Shown piece after piece: positions 19,306-29,221 of a stretch of 64,000 nucleotides of DNA (the stretch's first letter is position 1; every line of letters starts with the position of its first letter). The stretch is from Oleiphilus messinensis (GTDB taxonomy: Bacteria > Pseudomonadota > Gammaproteobacteria > Pseudomonadales > Oleiphilaceae), in assembly GCF_002162375.1 (NCBI RefSeq), contig NZ_CP021425.1, forward strand, positions 4,667,001 to 4,731,000, given 5' to 3'. A program made the position numbers and the translations under genes. The notes under the pieces were generated by a model. It was not told the DNA's origin, searched no databases, and saw only the letters and a list, made by a program, of their open reading frames with translations.

Positions 19306-20379
19306 CTATGAATTCTCGATCCTATCAATACGAACAACCTCCCGAATCTCCCTATCAGAAAAGTGAGTTTTACGAAGATTTTCAATGGCTCGGCTCAATT
19401 CTCTATCGGTTAAGGACTGATCGGAAGAAAGTACTTTCTTTGCATTACTGTAAGCGTCATAACGTGTTCGCCAATTATCCGATGCTGCTTCCGCGTCTTG
19501 AATTCTAAGTGCAGCTTTATGGCCATAAACATCGGCTCTAAGGTGGTAAATCAAGTCTTTATCAGCACCTTGTTCCCTGGCATAATTTACTTCCACCTCC
19601 ACTTGCTTGAACTGCTCAATACGATTCAATTTTTCCTGATAATCCCTAGGTAATGAACGTTGAAGTTCAGTGAGCTGTTGTTGTTTTTCATAATCAGAAA
19701 ATGCAGGATTAGTCTCTATCACTTTTTTACCAATATAATATCGGTCACGCAATTCTTCTTGTTCAAAAAAAGCAACGGCCACCTCTTCTCCCAAAAACTC
19801 TCTGCGACTCTCCTGCAATTCCATTAGGTGATCATAGATGGATTGAAAATCAGAATGTTCAAATTTAAATTGGCCGGAGGAATGAATACCCTGAGGTTTA
19901 TTTTCTTCATAGGCAATAAAACGATCATATAACGCCATAAGCTGTGTTCTAGCGGTTGCAGACAACTCCAAAGTAGCTAAAGAAATTACTTCTTCTCGTA
20001 TGCTTTCTAACGATTGTTCACCAAGGGTGCTAAGAAAATATTCAAATACAAATCTTACATTCTGATCGACAATCAGTTCTCCATTCGAGTCCATTGCTAA
20101 CTGGCCCGCAATTGAAGAACCTGTCAGGGATCCATGGACTTGGTATTCTCTAACCGGGATAGCCAAGTTACTGGATTCTTTAAGTCGATTAGTAGACAAA
20201 GTATCATCTACATTCGACTCAACAAACGTTATATCTTCGTCAGCCGAAGTGATACCAGTATCGATTGGCTGGTAGTTTCTTTTTGGAACCTGTTGCTTAA
20301 ACCAGTAAGTGCTTGCCATACCCAGCATTATCAACAAACACAGTAGCGCAATGGGTATAAAATATGGTCTGTAGTTCAT
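19306..20379 (-). CDS. lifO: Lipase-specific foldase (Lif), first copy
   Basis: A membrane-anchored periplasmic steric chaperone that folds the LipA lipase before type II secretion. It has 357 residues with one N-terminal anchor (about 8-26). The foldase signature RxxFDYFLSxxGE appears as RFVFEYFLSTLGE at 109-121, with Glu for the usual Asp. A long alpha-helical domain rich in Glu, Arg and Gln follows and would wrap the lipase. It lies 57 bases downstream of the lipase gene, with a perfect hairpin in the gap. Confidence 0.92.
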   Translation of the reverse strand: MNYRPYFIPIALLCLLIMLGMASTYWFKQQVPKRNYQPIDTGITSADEDITFVESNVDDTLSTNRLKESSNLAIPVREYQVHGSLTGSSIAGQLAMDSNGELIVDQNVRFVFEYFLSTLGEQSLESIREEVISLATLELSATARTQLMALYDRFIAYEENKPQGIHSSGQFKFEHSDFQSIYDHLMELQESRREFLGEEVAVAFFEQEELRDRYYIGKKVIETNPAFSDYEKQQQLTELQRSLPRDYQEKLNRIEQFKQVEVEVNYAREQGADKDLIYHLRADVYGHKAALRIQDAEAASDNWRTRYDAYSNAKKVLSSDQSLTDRELSRAIENLRKTHFSDREIREVVRIDRIENS

Positions 20380-20402
20380 CTAATGCATTCCTACTATCAA
20401 CC

Positions 20403-20422
20403 GGGGGCATCTTCATGCCCCC
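20403..20422 (-). other. Intercistronic hairpin between lipase and foldase genes
   Basis: GGGGGCAT and ATGCCCCC form a perfect 8-bp stem with a 4-base loop in the 57-base gap between lipA and lif. There is no T-run after it on the minus strand. It may stabilise the upstream lipase mRNA or lower read-through into the foldase gene. Confidence 0.6.
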
Positions 20423-20436
20423 AGTTTAAACAATCG

Positions 20437-21408
20437 TTATAGTCCTTGATTCTTCAATCGATTAACTTGAGTCTTATAAAGAGTGACAGGATTAGGGGAG
20501 AAAATTGCTCTTAAACCGAATAACTGATTGACGGTATCAAAGTGATCCAACTTGTAGTCATTGCGAATCACTTTACCCAGGTGACTACTACATACCGTTA
20601 CCAGGCCATCATTTACCTCTCCATTAGCCAGCGCTAGAGAAAGAGCTTTATCTAAATATGAAAATGGATCAAGAAAGTTTGTGAAATCCCGATTACCAGT
20701 CCACGAGTAGAAGTAGATCCCATTATCAACGAGTGGTCCTTCACCACAATACTCCTCTGGCAGACCAGCTGGATAGTTATCATTGAATGTAGAATCTGTC
20801 ATCCAACCTCCCGCTTCTACTGAAATGAAAGCGCGTCCATCCATATCATAACCGGCGCCAGTCATGTAATCGATGAAATAACCAAATGTCTCACCAGTAG
20901 AAAGTATGAGATCCATCAAAGTGGATTCCATATCTACGTAATTTGCAAAATTACTGACAATACTCCCATGGTTCGGCCCAGACACGGAAGTAACTGATGC
21001 CACCAACTCTGGCGCCTCACCAGCAACATAGCGGGCATCAAGCGTTCCCTGGCTATGGGCAATCAAATTCACCTTTTCAGCCCCCGAAATAGCTAAAATA
21101 CAGCGTACTTTCTTGAGTAATTGGTCGCCTCTCACCAAACTTGAGTTCATTGCCGCTTGTTGTGTGACATAAACAGTAGCGCCGTTATCGGTCAGCTTAT
21201 CAATAATACCGTACCAATAATCAACGCCAAGCAACTCGTCAAAACCAAACCAACCATGAGCCATCACAATTGGATATTTTGTTTTATTGTAAGTTCCAGA
21301 GTTAGGTGCTGGCTCATGAATTGATATATTGGAACAATCCATCTCAAATGCGTGTGACTGGGCGGCAAACAACACAGCTAACCCGGCCAAAATTTTTCTT
21401 ATGCTCAT
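20437..21408 (-). CDS. lipA: Secreted triacylglycerol lipase (family I.1/I.2), first copy
   Basis: An extracellular lipase of 323 residues with a signal peptide (about 1-20, AQSHA). The oxyanion-hole segment is MAHGWFGFDELLGVDYWYGI (HG at 51-52). The nucleophile Ser119 lies in IAHSQG, where most of the family has GHSHG or GHSQG. The Asp (NDGLV) and His (DHFDTVNQLFGL) of the triad are present near the C-terminus. Cysteines in EEYCGEG and VTVCSSH match the family's disulfide. The gene is followed by its foldase and preceded by a NarL-type two-component system on the same strand. A perfect palindrome lies 72 bases upstream of its start. Confidence 0.95.
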   Translation of the reverse strand: MSIRKILAGLAVLFAAQSHAFEMDCSNISIHEPAPNSGTYNKTKYPIVMAHGWFGFDELLGVDYWYGIIDKLTDNGATVYVTQQAAMNSSLVRGDQLLKKVRCILAISGAEKVNLIAHSQGTLDARYVAGEAPELVASVTSVSGPNHGSIVSNFANYVDMESTLMDLILSTGETFGYFIDYMTGAGYDMDGRAFISVEAGGWMTDSTFNDNYPAGLPEEYCGEGPLVDNGIYFYSWTGNRDFTNFLDPFSYLDKALSLALANGEVNDGLVTVCSSHLGKVIRNDYKLDHFDTVNQLFGLRAIFSPNPVTLYKTQVNRLKNQGL

Positions 21409-21480
21409 TACTCTATCTTCCCGGTTTCAAAAGAATTGTTAACAGAGTGTGTAATAAGCCAGATTATTAGGAGGCAAAAT

Positions 21481-21496
21481 AGTGACTAAAGTCACT
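21481..21496. promoter_or_regulatory. Palindrome upstream of lipase gene 1
   Basis: AGTGAC-TAAA-GTCACT is a perfect inverted repeat 72 bases upstream of the first lipase start. A near copy, AGTGAC-AAAA-GTCAT, lies 105 bases upstream of the second lipase gene. It is a candidate binding site for one or both NarL-type regulators encoded between the two lipase modules; this assignment is inferred. Confidence 0.5.
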
Positions 21497-21514
21497 TGTA
21501 AGAAAAAGTGTGAC

Positions 21515-22105
21515 CTACGCCAAACCTAAAGATTTAAGTCTAACAATTGCTTCTGCACGGTTTCGTACATCTAGTTTATTAAATAAATTCGAAGTGTAAT
21601 TTTTTACTGTCCCTAAACTCAAGCATTGTGCATCAGCAATTTCCTGATTGGTTTTCCCAGCAACCAACGCTCTGGCAATTTCATTTTCTCTCGAAGTAAG
21701 ACGCTCATGAGAAGCAGCCTGAGATCCCGAGATCAGAACTTCTCCGTTTGATACCCGCGCAATCGTGTTTATCAATACTTGTACATCAACATTTTTTAAT
21801 AACCAACCTTGCGCACCATTTTTTGCGACTTGTCGGCACAGGAAAGGATCCTCAAACGTAGTCAAAAAAATAACGGGAATGCTATGCTCTTTTCGAATAG
21901 CCTTTAAAGTTTCTAAGCCATTTAGGTCAGGCATCTGGACATCTAATAAAATCACATCAGGAAGCACACCATCTGAAAGCTGTTCCAAACATTGCCTACC
22001 ACTTTCTGCCGTTGCTAATACATCCACTTTTCCAGATAGTTTGAGTAATGTAGCGATACCTTGTAAAACAATCGTTTGATCATCAACGACCATTACCGTC
22101 TTCAC
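21515..22105 (-). CDS. NarL/LuxR-type response regulator 1
   Basis: A 196-residue response regulator. The receiver domain has DD at 8-9, phospho-acceptor Asp55 (VILLDVQMP) and Lys near 104 (WLLKNVDV). The LuxR-type helix-turn-helix spans about 130-190 (LTSRENEIARALVAGKTNQEIADAQCLSLGTVKNYTSNLFNKL). It starts at GTG and overlaps the stop of the upstream kinase gene by 4 bases, so kinase and regulator are coupled. It lies directly upstream of the first lipase gene and is the likely regulator of lipase expression. Confidence 0.9.
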   Translation of the reverse strand: MKTVMVVDDQTIVLQGIATLLKLSGKVDVLATAESGRQCLEQLSDGVLPDVILLDVQMPDLNGLETLKAIRKEHSIPVIFLTTFEDPFLCRQVAKNGAQGWLLKNVDVQVLINTIARVSNGEVLISGSQAASHERLTSRENEIARALVAGKTNQEIADAQCLSLGTVKNYTSNLFNKLDVRNRAEAIVRLKSLGLA

Positions 22106-23295
22106 TTCTGATCTCCATTTGGTATGGTTAGTTGGAGTTTAAATCCCCGATCCTGCTTTACTTCATAAGAAGCATTTCCCTCGATCAAAGCCAATCTCTC
22201 CTGCATCCCTGTCAGTCCATTGCCTGAATTAACCGACTGTGCCAGGCTACCGTTATCCACTACCTCGGCAACAAGCATTTCACCTGCGTGAAATAACCGG
22301 ATCCACACTTTATCCGCATTACTATGCTTTAAAACATTGGTTATTCCCTCTTGAATACAGCAAAGCAACTGTTCGGACTTATGTTGGTCTTTAATCCTTA
22401 AGTCGGGGTCGCAGTCTATATCAATATTCAATTTTGGAACTTTATCCACAATTTGAAGCAAGGAATCATAAAAGTATTCAAAGGTCTGCTGCTTTAATTC
22501 ATCTACAACATGCCCAAGGGTGAGATAGGCCTTTTGCGCGGCACTTTTCGCATTGTTTAGAGAGTCATTAGGCGTTTCACTATCGGATTCGCTTAAAAGC
22601 GCTTGTTCGCAAATTTGCAAATTTATATTAATCGCGGCAAGCTCGTGGCCCATTTTATCGTGGAGATCTCTACGAATCTGGCTACGTTCCTCCCTGCGAC
22701 TTGACTCAGCTAATTGCGCCTGAGCCATTTTCAACTGGGCTTGGCTAACTTTTAACCGCTTAGTTTCATTAATCTCATTAAATAGGCCATACCCTAATGA
22801 CCAAAGCACAAGTTGTTGGGTAAGTATATAAGCACCAATGTAGAATCTGTCAGGGTGATCAATTTGCAGGGTATAAAGCAAGGCAACCAATACGATTGAA
22901 GGCACTCCAATAAATGTAGAAAACCTGATGAACTGAACAGACAAGATAATTATCATGAACGATAACAATATCTGGTCCAGCGGACCAATATCCATCCAGT
23001 GGTTTATAAGAAATGCTGATCCATGGGAAGCAAAGAGCAACGACCAGCACACCCAGTCATCATCCTTTGTTAACCAGCTCACCCTGTTTATTAATATATT
23101 GTGCAATAACCAAATAGCATTGGCTAAGAAGAATACACCATTGGCGACACCCAAAAAAAGAAGCGGTAATGCTGTCTCAGAGTTATCTTGAGAAGCGAGG
23201 ATATAAACTCTACTAAAGGCAATAAACCAGGCAATCGACCCCAGCCCCCCTAAAATTGAGGCTCGAGCAACCACTGTCAGTTTCAATTTTGGCAT
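22102..23295 (-). CDS. NarX/DesK-type sensor histidine kinase 1
   Basis: A membrane sensor kinase of 397 residues with about six hydrophobic helices in the first 165 residues and little periplasmic sequence. This suggests it senses the membrane or a membrane-soluble signal. A coiled coil (about 175-205) leads to the HisKA_3 box RRDLHDKMGHELAAININLQ with His near 212. The HATPase has an N-box near 310 (CIQEGITNVLKHSNADKVWI) and NSGNGLTGMQERL near 362. It forms an operon with the regulator. Its closest visible relative in the window is the divergent kinase at 23748. Confidence 0.9.
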   Translation of the reverse strand: MPKLKLTVVARASILGGLGSIAWFIAFSRVYILASQDNSETALPLLFLGVANGVFFLANAIWLLHNILINRVSWLTKDDDWVCWSLLFASHGSAFLINHWMDIGPLDQILLSFMIIILSVQFIRFSTFIGVPSIVLVALLYTLQIDHPDRFYIGAYILTQQLVLWSLGYGLFNEINETKRLKVSQAQLKMAQAQLAESSRREERSQIRRDLHDKMGHELAAININLQICEQALLSESDSETPNDSLNNAKSAAQKAYLTLGHVVDELKQQTFEYFYDSLLQIVDKVPKLNIDIDCDPDLRIKDQHKSEQLLCCIQEGITNVLKHSNADKVWIRLFHAGEMLVAEVVDNGSLAQSVNSGNGLTGMQERLALIEGNASYEVKQDRGFKLQLTIPNGDQK

Positions 23296-23747
23296 TAAGA
23301 CTAAGCCCCTAAAGTAACTGTCTGATCAGCTAACAGGAAACGAAATGGTAATAAGGGGTATTGGCTAAAGATACCAAGCGATCTCGTGGTCGGTAAAGTC
23401 ATGGCAAAATCCTTTTTGCTTCGAAAGGTGAGTTTGCTGAACGATATTATGGGGAAGTCATACTGTCAATTCGTCGTGATTAAATTTTACTGGCCGTGCC
23501 TGTCCCTGCTGCAGCTGTACAGGCTTAATGTCTCTAGCAGAAGCGCGCGTTAGGGCGATACTGCCTTGGGATGCCAACTTGTTATGTTGCTGATACATTA
23601 CGGCTTTGAATTTGCTCGGCGATAGGATATTTGAATTACTGGCGATTCAGAGAGTTAGCAGGCATTAGGTGGTGTCATAATTCAATATGGTACAATTGCG
23701 CATTAATTTGTATGGTGATTCAGACTCTTATCGCATAAAACAGGTTA
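23296..23747. other. Divergent intergenic region with transposase debris
   Basis: This 452-base spacer separates the two divergent sensor-kinase genes. Its left part (23335-23505) is a degenerate copy of the 5' end of the RAYT gene at 28253-29221. The remaining 240 bases hold the presumed promoter of the plus-strand kinase. No further gene is seen. Confidence 0.7.
23335..23505 (-). pseudogene. Truncated 5' fragment of a RAYT transposase gene
   Basis: The sequence matches 29158-29322 over roughly 165 bases by eye, including the start codon (CAT at 23400-23402 corresponds to CAT at 29219-29221) and 80 bases upstream. Four extra bases after codon 4 shift the frame. The shifted frame then reads RLVSLANTPYYHFVSC and stops, matching RLVSLADTPYYHIVSR of the intact gene. 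The rest of the gene is absent. The fragment ends with the repeat GGCCGTGCCTGTCC at 23492-23505. Confidence 0.8.
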
Positions 23748-24953
23748 ATGGTATCAATGGACGTGGCATCTAATACTGATTTCAATCCGGTCAAAGCTCC
23801 TCCCGTGGTTTGGCGCGTTATCTTGCTGTTAGTAGCGGGATTTGTCGGATGGGGGGTCGTCGTAAGTGAGTTTTTAGGGTATAGCGGACCTCGCTCTGAT
23901 GTTTATTTATTAACGGTTTCCTTTTCTTTCTTGCATCTAGTGCTACTTACCTTGGCCACGCTACGATTTAGCAATAAATTTAAAGGCGTCGATCCTCATC
24001 AACTTTCTGAATTAAAGTATAAGCCTTCCACTTGGTTTTATGTAATTGCGGTTTATATCAACGCGCTCGCCTTGATTTACAGCGCATCGTTGCTGAACGC
24101 GAATTTATATGTGCTTTCCTTTATTTTGCTAAGTGGTGCGGCAATTATCGCTATTCTTCCTATTGTAGCGGTGCTGTTTATCACTGTTTTTTCGTCATTG
24201 ATATTCTATGTCATTACCCCTGAAACGTTCTCAGGGAGTTATGTCTTCTTTGTTTTGATTCAACAGCTTATGTTGGTTGTTCTGACGCTTTCTGCGCTCA
24301 AAGAGCAAAAAAAGGGGGAGTTACTAGCCAGAAGTCACCAAGAATTGTTTGCCACTCAATTGCTGTTAGAAGAAACGGCACGTAAAAACGAGCGTCGAAA
24401 ACTTTCGTTTGATCTTCATGACCAGATGGGACATACCCTGACGGCGGTTAATTGGAATTTGCAATATCTACAACATACGCTTGATGGGGAGCTGCTGAAG
24501 AAGGCCGAGGACACACTCGATCTGGTGACTAATCTATCAAAAACACTGCGTGAGCTGGTCAGCGAGATGAGAGAAAAATCTCAGGTAGACGTAAAACATG
24601 CCATTGAGCAGCTTGTAAATGTTACCCCGGGTCTTGAAATCAAATTAAATATCGATCAGTCGTTTGATTATTCTCTCGTTTTAGCCGAAGTGATTTTTCG
24701 CTGTTGCCAGGAAGCAATTACGAATGTTTTGCGTCATGCTAAAGCAACGCTGATGACAATATCTATTTCTGATAGTCATGATTTCATTGTCATGGTTATT
24801 GCAGACAACGGTGTTGGTATGAGCGATGCGCTCCCTGGCAATGGATTAACAGGAATGAAAGAGAGAATTGAACAGCTGAATGGTAGCTTCGAAATGCGGG
24901 AAAGTAGGGCGTCAGGCGTTTGTTTGTATATTACATTGCCGGTGAGTTGTTAG
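23748..24953 (+). CDS. NarX/DesK-type sensor histidine kinase 2
   Basis: A 401-residue membrane kinase, architecturally a twin of the divergent kinase at 22102. About six hydrophobic helices fill residues 20-175. A coiled coil leads into ERRKLSFDLHDQMGHTLTAVNWNLQ (His near 224). The N-box region CCQEAITNVLRHAKATL (about 325) and GNGLTGMKERIEQL follow. The two proteins are similar in layout but clearly diverged. The gene starts at 23748 (AGG six bases upstream); an ATG three codons later is possible. Its cognate regulator begins 4 bases after the stop. Confidence 0.9.
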   Translation: MVSMDVASNTDFNPVKAPPVVWRVILLLVAGFVGWGVVVSEFLGYSGPRSDVYLLTVSFSFLHLVLLTLATLRFSNKFKGVDPHQLSELKYKPSTWFYVIAVYINALALIYSASLLNANLYVLSFILLSGAAIIAILPIVAVLFITVFSSLIFYVITPETFSGSYVFFVLIQQLMLVVLTLSALKEQKKGELLARSHQELFATQLLLEETARKNERRKLSFDLHDQMGHTLTAVNWNLQYLQHTLDGELLKKAEDTLDLVTNLSKTLRELVSEMREKSQVDVKHAIEQLVNVTPGLEIKLNIDQSFDYSLVLAEVIFRCCQEAITNVLRHAKATLMTISISDSHDFIVMVIADNGVGMSDALPGNGLTGMKERIEQLNGSFEMRESRASGVCLYITLPVSC

Positions 24954-24957
24954 TTAG

Positions 24958-25548
24958 ATGATTAATGTGTTACTGGTTGATGACCAGCATATTGTTCGTC
25001 AGGGGATCGCTTCTTTGCTGAATTTGTCTGATGAAGTTTTGGTGCTTGCCGAAGCGGAGAGTGGCGAGGCTGCTTTAACGTTTCTGGCGAAAGCTGTACC
25101 GGATATTGTGCTAATGGATATTCGTATGCCTGGGATGAACGGTGTTGAAACGCTCATAGAAATGCGAGAAAGGAATATTCATTGCCCGACAATATTATTA
25201 ACTTCTTTTGAAGATACCGATTTGGTTCAAAAAGGATTAGCGGTGGGGGCTGTAGCGAGCCTTTTGAAGGATGTAACCATTGATGAGCTGCTTCGTGTGA
25301 TAAAAACGTATGCTTCAAATGGCCAGAAAATTAGGGCGAAGGAGTCACCAGATAACAACTTTAACACGTTAACTCCCCGTGAAAGCCAGGTACTTAGGTT
25401 AATTTCCCAAGGGTTGTGCAATAAAGAAATTGCCACTCAGTTGGGGCTTAGTACAGGTACGGTCAAAAACCATACCTCAAATATTTTTAGTAAGCTCGGT
25501 GTTCGTGATCGTATTCAAGCAGCGTTGAAATATAATCACCATTCATGA
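24958..25548 (+). CDS. NarL/LuxR-type response regulator 2
   Basis: A 196-residue response regulator, the same length as regulator 1 and similar in sequence. The phospho-acceptor is Asp54 (IVLMDIRMPGMNG). The C-terminal LuxR helix-turn-helix reads LTPRESQVLRLISQGLCNKEIATQLGLSTGTVKNHTSNIFSKL. It is coupled to kinase 2. Its 3' end overlaps the convergent foldase gene by 6 bases. It probably controls the second lipase module, the first, or both. Confidence 0.9.
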   Translation: MINVLLVDDQHIVRQGIASLLNLSDEVLVLAEAESGEAALTFLAKAVPDIVLMDIRMPGMNGVETLIEMRERNIHCPTILLTSFEDTDLVQKGLAVGAVASLLKDVTIDELLRVIKTYASNGQKIRAKESPDNNFNTLTPRESQVLRLISQGLCNKEIATQLGLSTGTVKNHTSNIFSKLGVRDRIQAALKYNHHS

Positions 25549-26643
25549 GTTTTGTTTAATTCGAGCGATATGATCCAGCGCCTCCATGCGTTTGATGTCT
25601 GCCTGACTTAATCCCATGGTATTACGCATCAGGTGATTGATCGCCGCTTTTTTGTCGGCATCGGTCATGCCAGAATGACTTTCAATGATAGCCTTCTCGG
25701 CAAGATACTGAAGCCGCTTCTTTTCCCATTGTTTTTTTCGTTCATCAATCAGTGCTAGCCTATCTGCAGCGGCAGAGCCAACCAAATCAACCCGTTTTTG
25801 ATAAATTTCTTCCTCACTGGCATTTGAACTTCTTAGTGACTTTTCTACGTGCTTGAGATTCATTGCGGAAAAAGATTTTTGTCTTTGCTCATACTGTTGC
25901 AGGGGGATCGTCTGTTCTAGCGCTGAAATACGTTGGCGCTTTTGATCGTTATTCAGGTTTGGATCACTGCTTACTTTTAGTATGGCCAAAGAGAGGTCGT
26001 CATAGGCGATATCTTCGCCAAACAGTGCCTCGGTTTCGGTGGTGGTGAAGACGTTATCTCTCACGGTTTGTCGAAGTGCTAGTAATTCTTCAACGGTTGA
26101 AAGCCCTTGGTGATTATCCCATGGGAAGTAAGGCTGTTCTTCCGGTAGGTTATTCTTATAAGCCATCAGTCGGTCATGGTAATCGATATATTTATCTAGC
26201 AGCATCAAAGCTTCACTTTGTGCAGGTTCGCTGAGGCGGTCCTTAATATAATGCGTAATTCGCAATGCTATCTGAGCTTGAGTCTCTTCCCCTCTAGCGG
26301 TGAAAAAATAATCAAACACATGACGTACACTTTGATTCAATATTAAGTGTCCATTGCTGTCTTGCTCAAGAGACCCTGTCACTTGTGTATTAATAAGCGA
26401 GTGGGGGAGTGATTTTAAGTCGAACGACTTATGGACTCCATTGCGTTTCAATTCCTCCTTCTTAACAAGGGCAGATTGTTTTTCCGAGGTATAAGAAGGC
26501 GTTTCTGCATATGGTTGTGTTGATCGGACAGCTTGGCTCTCCACATCTGATACGTGCGACCAGGTGTGGATGCCAATGGCACATAATCCACTTATTAGTC
26601 CTAATAATAGGACTATATACCGATGTTTAAGTGTCATTTGCAT
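25543..26643 (-). CDS. lifO: Lipase-specific foldase (Lif), second copy
   Basis: A 366-residue membrane-anchored periplasmic chaperone for the adjacent lipase. The N-terminal anchor is at about 8-26. The signature is RHVFDYFFTARGEE at 107-120, here with the canonical FDY. The helical C-terminal domain contains many charged heptads. It starts 17 bases after the stop of lipase 2. The 3' end overlaps the convergent response regulator by 6 bases. Similarity to the first Lif is clear (the motif ITGSL/QVTGSLEQDSNGHLIL region) but moderate, so the copies are old. Confidence 0.92.
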   Translation of the reverse strand: MQMTLKHRYIVLLLGLISGLCAIGIHTWSHVSDVESQAVRSTQPYAETPSYTSEKQSALVKKEELKRNGVHKSFDLKSLPHSLINTQVTGSLEQDSNGHLILNQSVRHVFDYFFTARGEETQAQIALRITHYIKDRLSEPAQSEALMLLDKYIDYHDRLMAYKNNLPEEQPYFPWDNHQGLSTVEELLALRQTVRDNVFTTTETEALFGEDIAYDDLSLAILKVSSDPNLNNDQKRQRISALEQTIPLQQYEQRQKSFSAMNLKHVEKSLRSSNASEEEIYQKRVDLVGSAAADRLALIDERKKQWEKKRLQYLAEKAIIESHSGMTDADKKAAINHLMRNTMGLSQADIKRMEALDHIARIKQNS

Positions 26644-26660
26644 ACCCTGCTGAGCCTGGA

Positions 26661-27713
26661 TTATAGATTATCTGCGCGTAGACGACTGACATGAGAGGCG
26701 TAAATAGCAGGAATCGAGACGCCATTAAACCAGGGTATTCCCGCAATTTGGTTAATGGCATCAAAATGTGTTGCTGTGTAGTCTAGTCTGATAACTTTAC
26801 CAAGAGCGTGGCCACAGGTTGGCATAAATCCATCCCACTCGTAATTGTCTGGGTCCGCGACGGACCACTGTACGAAATATTTAACGAAGTAGCGGGAGAA
26901 CAGGTCGAAGAGTTCCGTATTGGTGGTCGTTTCTTCATTGCCTCCCCACGAGTAAAAACGGATGGTATGTGGCCCGTTATCATCATAAAGTGTGACCAAA
27001 TGATCGCCATAGTGGTTTGCGGCTACTTCACCGGTCGTACCATTATTAATGGCCATACAATCTTGTTTGGGTAAGCCTGCGGGGTATTGTTGATTGAACT
27101 CGGCAACAGCTTCAGGCGTTGTTGCATGGCCCATCGTCACAAAAGATTGGTTGAGAGGGCGAGTTTCACTATTAAACTCTCCATCACGGGAAGGGGTAGA
27201 AATTATTTCAAGGAAGTTAAAGGCCCAGTTAGGGAAAAAAGACAATATGTTTTCAAGAACATCATTCTCTCCGGGTACGGCTGCCAACAATCCGGAAGCG
27301 TAATGCAGTCCCTTGTTTAAACCGTGTACACTGGTGATAGATGCAATCTGTCCGGGGATGATATATGCGGCATAGCGAGACGCCAGCGCTCCCTGGCTAT
27401 GGGCGATCAAGTTAGCTTTTGGCGCGTCTGCAATGGCGAGAACCTTTTGTATATCATCAACCAACTCTTCTCCCCGGGTAAAGTTATCGCTCAATGAGCT
27501 TAGGTTGACGACATAAACATCGGCCCCTTCTTTTATAAGACGAGAACGAATGCCATACCAGTAGTCGTATCCCAGCACACTATCAAAACAAAAGGCACCG
27601 CAAACCAGAATGATTGGATATTTCAATGATTTGGACGTATTGGCTGAAGCGGTGGATATCCCCTGAAGCAGAAACCCAGAAAACAGTATGGACAGTATTA
27701 TTCTTTTAAACAT
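26661..27713 (-). CDS. lipA: Secreted triacylglycerol lipase-like protein, second copy
   Basis: A LipA-family protein of 350 residues from the ATG at 27713. That start is chosen because AAGGAGAG lies 7 bases upstream and a normal signal peptide follows (about 1-24). A longer frame runs to 27848. The nucleophile Ser106 is in IAHSQG, and Asp and His are in WDGFMPTC and THFDAINQIAGI. The oxyanion-hole motif is altered: the family's HG reads CG here (ILVCGAFCFDSVLGYDYWYGI). An insertion of about 30 residues relative to copy 1 lies in the lid/C-terminal half. The altered motif raises the possibility of changed catalysis. Confidence 0.88.
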   Translation of the reverse strand: MFKRIILSILFSGFLLQGISTASANTSKSLKYPIILVCGAFCFDSVLGYDYWYGIRSRLIKEGADVYVVNLSSLSDNFTRGEELVDDIQKVLAIADAPKANLIAHSQGALASRYAAYIIPGQIASITSVHGLNKGLHYASGLLAAVPGENDVLENILSFFPNWAFNFLEIISTPSRDGEFNSETRPLNQSFVTMGHATTPEAVAEFNQQYPAGLPKQDCMAINNGTTGEVAANHYGDHLVTLYDDNGPHTIRFYSWGGNEETTTNTELFDLFSRYFVKYFVQWSVADPDNYEWDGFMPTCGHALGKVIRLDYTATHFDAINQIAGIPWFNGVSIPAIYASHVSRLRADNL

Positions 27714-27818
27714 TGCGGCCCTCTCCTTAGTGATAGTGTGTGTGAGTGCTTTTATCACTCTATCCTGTTGATAATAATATGAAGGAGTTATTTTATTTGT
27801 GCGGACAAATCGGGCAGA

Positions 27819-27833
27819 AGTGACAAAAGTCAT
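27819..27833. promoter_or_regulatory. Palindrome upstream of lipase gene 2
   Basis: AGTGAC-AAAA-GTCAT lies 105 bases upstream of the second lipase start and shares 13 of 15 bases with the perfect palindrome upstream of lipase 1. Its core TGAC-n4-GTCA is fully symmetric. It is a candidate site for a shared regulator. Confidence 0.45.
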
Positions 27834-28252: not shown

Positions 28253-29221
28253 TTAGGCTGCGATGGACTTGAGCTTTCGCCGTGAATACTGCCGCTCGTA
28301 TATCGCTTCAAATTGCGTTGATCGAGTTAACCAATCATGATTGCTCAAGCCTAATCGACAAAGTATGGACGGAAGGTGTTCTGGTGTACTGCCCCGCTTC
28401 GAGGGATGCACAGCTCGTCCGGTATAATCCACTAAGTGCAGGTAATCTTGCCAAGTAAAAGGCAAGCCCACTTGAACAGACCCCTTAATCGTTTCTTCGA
28501 AGTGAAGCAAGGGTTTGATCGATAAATTAAAACTGAATAAGGCCCCTTCCGAAATTTGGTTCTGTATTGCCTTTGCAGGATCAAATGCCGGACGTGCCCG
28601 TTCTTTCAGACTGGTGTGATCAGCTTCCTCGGGTGTATCCGCCATATTCGCCCGCACTGGATTGAGATCGACATAGGCCATGCAACTCAACAACGCCTCT
28701 TTCGTTAACAAGGCCTGCGACCGAAAGCGCCCTTCCCAGAAATGCCCTGTACAATCATCTTCTCGATTGGCCATGCGAGCAATGGGTTCATTGAGGCATT
28801 TCATAAACCAGCTCAGATCTGTGAGCCTTTTCCGATAGAGTTTAACCAGCGTTCCTAACGTGTTCTTCTCCGCAGTATCCAGCCTGTCGCCACGGAGATA
28901 TTTCCGTACAATCAAAGGCCCCTTGAACACTGAACACCAGCGTGCAAGTACATCATCCTGCGACCAATCCAGAGCTTCATCCGGATTCAACTTGATCACG
29001 AGATGATAGTGATTGGACATTACAGCATAAGCACAAATATCAACGGTGAAAAGCGATGATAGCAAGCGGATACGGTCTTCGATCCACTGCCTCCGGTGTT
29101 CAAAACTCTGACCGGTTTGATGATCCGTGCCGCAAAGGAATGTGCGACGCACGCAACGGGAAACGATATGGTAATAAGGGGTATCGGCTAAAGATACCAA
29201 GCGATCTCGGGGTACAGTCAT
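28253..29221 (-). CDS. REP-associated tyrosine transposase (RAYT, Y1_Tnp/IS200-like)
   Basis: A single-strand-specific HUH nuclease of the TnpA-REP family, 322 residues. The N-terminus MTVPRDRLVSLADTPYYHIVSR is typical of RAYTs. The HUH motif is HYH at 71-73 (AVMSNHYHLVIKL). The segment GHFWEGRFRSQALLTKEALLSCMAYVDLNPVRA near 175-205 contains the candidate catalytic Tyr. A C-terminal extension of about 100 residues ends in the basic RRKLKS. Such enzymes are thought to spread REP/REPIN repeats rather than move like insertion sequences, and matching short repeats flank this gene. Confidence 0.93.
   Translation of the reverse strand: MTVPRDRLVSLADTPYYHIVSRCVRRTFLCGTDHQTGQSFEHRRQWIEDRIRLLSSLFTVDICAYAVMSNHYHLVIKLNPDEALDWSQDDVLARWCSVFKGPLIVRKYLRGDRLDTAEKNTLGTLVKLYRKRLTDLSWFMKCLNEPIARMANREDDCTGHFWEGRFRSQALLTKEALLSCMAYVDLNPVRANMADTPEEADHTSLKERARPAFDPAKAIQNQISEGALFSFNLSIKPLLHFEETIKGSVQVGLPFTWQDYLHLVDYTGRAVHPSKRGSTPEHLPSILCRLGLSNHDWLTRSTQFEAIYERQYSRRKLKSIAA

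Follow-up and report, generated by a model that had tools for sequence, protein, structure and literature searches.

Two lipase/foldase modules of Oleiphilus messinensis share a candidate operator of a DesK-like two-component family

Results

Two lipase/foldase modules adjoin two two-component systems

O. messinensis ME102 is a marine, obligate hydrocarbonoclastic bacterium (PMC5847120), and lipases go unmentioned in the paper describing its genome (PMC5847120). A 64-kb stretch of the chromosome (positions 4,667,001 to 4,731,000 of NZ_CP021425.1), hereafter the window, was analyzed, and coordinates are positions within it unless the chromosome is named. Two complete LipA/Lif modules lie between 19306 and 27713, together with two two-component systems of the HisKA_3/NarL type, HK1-RR1 and HK2-RR2 (Table 1). 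The gene order read in a first-pass annotation, lif1-lipA1-RR1-HK1 on the minus strand, HK2-RR2 on the plus strand, and lif2-lipA2 on the minus strand, was confirmed, with all eight genes intact. The HK1 and RR1 genes overlap by 4 bp, and RR2 and lif2 are convergent, with a 6-bp overlap. The start of lipA2 had been placed at 27833 and was corrected: that ATG is part of a regulatory box, and the real start is the ATG at 27713, which is preceded by the Shine-Dalgarno sequence AAGGAGAGG and followed by a signal peptide.

Table 1. Features of the lipase and two-component block (positions in the 64-kb window)
Feature	Position	Strand	Evidence
lif1, membrane-anchored lipase foldase, 357 aa	19306..20379	-	Pfam PF03280 (Lipase_chap), 1.2e-31
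lipA1, secreted LipA-type lipase, 323 aa, serine elbow AHSQG	20437..21408	-	1EX9, E = 9.1e-78
RR-family box upstream of lipA1, GTGACTTTAGTCACTATT	21478..21495	-	PWM rank 2 in the window, 17.55 bits
RR1, NarL/DesR-type response regulator, GTG start, 196 aa	21515..22105	-	Response_reg and GerE
HK1, DesK-type histidine kinase, multi-TM sensor	22102..23295	-	HisKA_3; DesK, 9.8e-17
Divergent HK1/HK2 promoter region, without box	23296..23747		Best PWM score -0.1
HK2, DesK-type histidine kinase, ~6 predicted TM helices	23748..24953	+	HisKA_3 and HATPase_c; hydropathy; AlphaFold model
RR2, NarL/DesR-type response regulator, 196 aa	24958..25548	+	DesR, 6.8e-34
lif2, lipase foldase, 366 aa	25543..26643	-	PF03280, 5.3e-37
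lipA2, LipA-type lipase, 350 aa, serine elbow AHSQG	26661..27713	-	Lipase C12, 6.4e-40; 1EX9, 1.8e-38
RR-family box upstream of lipA2, ATGACTTTTGTCACTTCT	27816..27833	-	PWM rank 1 in the window, 21.65 bits

The claim that both lipase/foldase modules are complete held, as Pfam identified a Lipase_chap domain in both Lif proteins and an alpha/beta hydrolase in both LipA proteins. In each module, a PF03280 protein thus adjoins an alpha/beta-hydrolase lipase, the defining arrangement of the LipA/Lif class, and both LipA proteins match solved lipases of the I.1/I.2 type (Table 1). The catalytic residues S119, D267, and H289 are invariant in an alignment of four LipA paralogs of this genome. The serine elbow of LipA1 and LipA2 reads AHSQG in place of GHSxG, and the oxyanion loop of LipA2 has CG where HG is expected. 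The foldase motif is usually FDY; Lif2 has FDY, and Lif1 has RFVFEYFLST at this position.

The genome encodes six Lif and six LipA proteins, whose genes make up five complete modules and leave one lif and one lipA as orphans (LipA2, which appears as two pieces in the genome LipA listing, was counted once). For this order, several Lif proteins per genome are nothing unusual, and some genomes give as many as eight matches. The six O. messinensis LipA proteins occupy six separate places in a tree of 113 LipA rows, where the long branches of lipA1 and lipA2 do not group as sisters. The two modules, earlier taken for two diverged copies, are therefore not local duplicates, and local duplication of a whole lipA-lif-two-component unit was ruled out on the same grounds.

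HK1-RR1 and HK2-RR2 resemble DesK/DesR

Response_reg and GerE domains were found by Pfam in RR1 and RR2, and a HisKA_3 domain in HK1 and HK2; HATPase_c scored above the curated cut-off in HK2 and was weak in HK1. Among solved structures, HK1 is nearest DesK, and RR2, a NarL/FixJ-type regulator, is nearest DesR (Table 1), which agrees with the DesK-like type previously claimed for the pairs. Both kinases had also been described as six-helix sensors with almost no periplasmic part. This description fits HK2, for which hydropathy and a low-confidence AlphaFold model (pLDDT 63) indicate about six membrane-spanning helices joined by short loops; HK1 was less clear by hydropathy. By their predicted architecture, a HisKA_3 domain and a sensor with several TM helices and no evident periplasmic domain, HK1 and HK2 fall into the DesK-type class.

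The two pairs are diverged from each other (27% and 43-45% identity), and a third paralogous pair, HK3-RR3, is encoded at 1.47 Mb beside mipA, far from any lipase gene. The kinase tree joins HK1 and HK2 as sisters (support 98/89), subject to a long-branch warning. The enclosing clade (99/98) also contains HK3 and kinases from many gammaproteobacterial families. RR1 and RR2 retain the recognition-helix region GTVKN..SN..KL, which in them is nearer the family consensus than in RR3. Because the linker of RR1 and RR2 is shortened and HK1 and HK2 lie on long branches, regulator specificity may have drifted.

The likeness to DesK/DesR of Bacillus subtilis consists of the HisKA_3 kinase class, the multi-TM sensor, and the NarL-type response regulator. 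No fatty acid desaturase was recognized among the genes at 15-33 kb of the window, and we therefore do not classify the pairs as DesKR itself. Unlike the B. subtilis system, the O. messinensis pairs occur in a Gram-negative organism, in a block without a desaturase target, and their candidate operator is an inverted repeat of the AGTGACT-TT-AGTCACT type at lipase promoters.

The arrangement is known from a single genome so far

Distribution of the arrangement was analyzed from both sides. A profile that detected every fetched kinase of the HK1/HK2 type found no such kinase near lip/lif in 176 other loci with flanks, which were drawn from a set of 80 named loci and a set of 100 belonging to the same order. 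Conversely, neither LipA nor Lif was found near relatives of HK1 and HK2 (0 of 17 fetched loci). Among 163 genomes of the same family, full-length kinase relatives occur in two besides O. messinensis. Comparison of gene order across relatives, which had been proposed as a check, thus showed that the block is absent from them and is not ordinary synteny; the combination of lipase and HK-RR genes is so far unique to the O. messinensis genome.

The block is AT-rich, as had been noted by eye: GC content of its eight genes is 0.40-0.46 (GC3, 0.31-0.45), versus 0.48-0.53 for the remaining O. messinensis lipA and lif genes and 0.52 for HK3-RR3. Acquisition is possible because of this AT-richness, and long drift is possible as well. 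The "transposase debris" cited as a sign of acquisition proved to be one intact, full-length gene (28253-29221, 322 aa) of ordinary GC content (0.487), and a transposase-driven island was rejected. This gene, which adjoins the lipA2 promoter and resembles REP-associated tyrosine transposases, is weak evidence for either acquisition or long drift.

Both lipA promoters carry the same box

The 14-mer TGACTTTWGTCACT is common to the upstream regions of lipA1 and lipA2, with 13 of 14 bases identical between them, and its exact form has two occurrences in the 6.38-Mb genome, one upstream of each of these genes. With a flanking A, the lipA1 box reads AGTGACT-TT-AGTCACT (21481-21496), a perfect inverted repeat whose 7-2-7 spacing is known for NarL-type regulators. 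A terminator scan flagged this repeat; that reading was rejected, since the lipA2 copy has arms of only 4 bp and yet keeps the 14-mer. When the two upstream regions were shuffled, a common 14-mer arose in 20 of 2,000 pairs, and one that was an inverted repeat in both regions in 2 of 2,000. By itself, the shared 14-mer is only moderate evidence.

Upstream of the lipA1 box, at a distance of 14 nt, is another GTCAC half-site (21481-21513), and the three half-sites at lipA1 may form a longer operator. By eye, a -10-like hexamer can be read 23-24 nt past each box, at a spacing that would fit activation from about -42; a sigma-70 scan does not list this hexamer, detected no promoter where one would be expected, and showed the region not to be enriched in promoter-like sites.

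The box is a conserved feature of kinase promoters in relatives

The same site was sought upstream of the kinase genes of relatives. Among 41 such regions, 9, 18, and 28 contained it at no more than one, two, and three mismatches, respectively, compared with 0.005, 0.16, and 2.3 in shuffled controls. After removal of two duplicate loci, a motif model was built from the remaining 39 regions. De novo analysis of the relatives alone returned [AG]TGACTTTTGGCACT, and GACTTTTGGC is present in 18 of the 39. The resulting position weight matrix (PWM) was trained on kinase-gene promoters of other Gammaproteobacteria and includes no sequence of the O. messinensis genome.

Across the window, the PWM ranked the lipA2 site first (21.65 bits) and the lipA1 site second (17.55 bits), the next score being 11.7; per-position p values were ~1e-7 or less for lipA2 and ~6.5e-7 for the lipA1 score. 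Since the top scores of 20 random 64-kb sequences ranged from 10.6 to 18.8, the lipA1 score by itself is within reach of random sequence of this length, and it is the position just upstream of lipA1 that counts.

The promoter of HK3-RR3 carries the box (17.2 bits). HK3 is thus a clade member with the box at its own promoter, whereas HK1 and HK2, in the same clade, lack it at theirs (Table 1). The PWM was applied to the window and to sets of upstream regions, and the whole genome was searched with a relaxed IUPAC consensus, which gave nine matches: six within unrelated genes and three in promoters, those of HK3, lipA1, and lipA2. The relaxed consensus was picked after the sites had been seen; the PWM was not, but the choice of promoters examined was. 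No box was found at the other lipA and lif promoters of O. messinensis or in 172 lipA upstream regions of other genomes. The box is therefore not a general lipA promoter element, and an element common to the remaining lipases of O. messinensis was likewise rejected.

Box-bearing DesK-like HK-RR genes form a gammaproteobacterial family (loci L270, L272, L274, L323, L324, and L045) and are often divergent from a gene for a DUF2306-like membrane protein or MipA. In two loci from the same family as O. messinensis, L323 (22.2 bits) and L324 (17.6 bits), the box lies between HK and the divergent membrane-protein gene, and L324 is beside mipA, as is HK3. The pairs of L270, L272, L274, L323, and L324, which lie beside mipA or a DUF2306-like gene, share the kinase clade and the box with O. 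messinensis. They differ in having the box at the HK-RR promoter and no lipase nearby, whereas the O. messinensis HK1/HK2 block has it at the lipA promoters instead. Our literature search found no description of this family.

Discussion

On sequence grounds, the link between regulators and lipases now goes beyond mere proximity, because the two best window sites of a motif trained on relatives precede lipA2 and lipA1. We consider it likely that the two lipase/foldase modules are under the control of a DesK/DesR-like two-component family, which would act via one kind of operator. The multi-helix kinases, with almost no periplasmic part, would sense a membrane or lipid-derived state, a reasonable guess from their likeness to DesK, and would phosphorylate their NarL-type regulators, as kinases of this family do. 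A regulator dimer is then predicted, from phylogenetic footprinting, to bind the inverted repeat TGACTTTnGnCACT that precedes lipA1-lif1 and lipA2-lif2 and would probably activate both modules. Ordinarily, the box marks the promoter of its own HK-RR genes, an arrangement that HK3-RR3 retains; the divergent promoter of HK1 and HK2 has no box, and two lipase promoters carry it instead. Its presence at both suggests one dedicated lipid-digestion switch. A broader reading, more tentative but plausible, is that a membrane-sensing DesK-like system was duplicated and rewired, losing the operator from its own promoter and gaining it at two unrelated lipase promoters, to make a dedicated lipid-sensing and lipolysis switch.

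Binding would be by RR1 and/or RR2, with RR3 possible; since all three regulators could bind the box, control does not have to lie with the neighboring pairs. That RR3 of the distant pair regulates both lipA promoters, with HK1-RR1 and HK2-RR2 having other or lost targets, is unlikely. HK3-RR3 does keep the box in its own promoter, has normal GC content, and has an ortholog next to mipA in a different genome of the family, and the HK1/HK2 promoter is without a box; yet the box-carrying lipases adjoin exactly the two extra pairs and nowhere else, and the recognition helix is better preserved in RR1 and RR2 than in RR3.

Still less probable are two insulated circuits, RR1 acting on lipA1 and RR2 on lipA2, as the first-pass annotation had it. 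The divergence of the pairs, the adjacency of each to one module, and the co-directional HK1-RR1-lipA1-lif1 genes would suit such circuits, but the boxes at the two promoters are nearly identical and RR2 converges on lif2. With the same box at both promoters, lipA2-lif2 convergent with HK2-RR2, and a box-bearing HK3-RR3 elsewhere, the tie of each lipase to its own pair is not supported; of the proposed two-component/lipase island, the regulator-lipase link receives real support, through the footprinted box at both lipA promoters, and the separate circuits do not. Mere chance, that is, unrelated neighbors in an AT-rich, loosely organized stretch with a coincidental box match, could appeal to the 14-mers shared by some shuffled pairs and to an arrangement known from one genome, but is very improbable given that training on relatives only ranks both lipA sites at the top of 64 kb, with a joint probability of ~1e-8 (a rough estimate from the per-position p values and ~150 bp upstream of each gene).

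Direct control of lipA by a two-component system is described for LipQ/LipR of Pseudomonas alcaligenes and CbrA/B of P. aeruginosa (PMC12134079), and according to this review, direct two-component control of lipase genes involves NtrC-type systems only (PMC12134079). LipQ/LipR and CbrA/B are NtrB/NtrC types that work with sigma-54, whereas the O. messinensis pairs are HisKA_3/NarL, and Pfam found no NtrC or sigma-54 activation domain in RR1 and RR2. Nothing relevant on DesK/NarL-type regulators of lipases (HisKA_3/NarL controlling LipA/Lif) was found in the literature. The block would tie a membrane-type sensor family with an identifiable candidate operator to lipases in an obligate hydrocarbon degrader and, if the proposal is true, is a clean case of regulatory rewiring. 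The candidate operator also offers a testable binding site for an apparently uncharacterized HK-RR family that spans several gammaproteobacterial orders.

The lipases themselves resemble the I.1/I.2 subfamily systems of P. aeruginosa (LipA) and Burkholderia glumae in gene pairing, fold, Ser-Asp-His triad, and foldase domain, and the 1EX9 and 2ES4 lipases are among their structure matches. They differ from those systems in the AHSQG elbow and long branches of LipA1 and LipA2 and in the number of genes, five modules and two orphans in one genome. The orphan lif, without a lipase, lies near 5.22 Mb (chromosome 5220480-5221064; locus L044, 7421-8524, minus strand), and the orphan lipA, without a foldase, near 5.40 Mb (chromosome 5396422-5397300; locus L282, 6330-7304, plus strand); encoded in the same genome, the two may be partners in trans.
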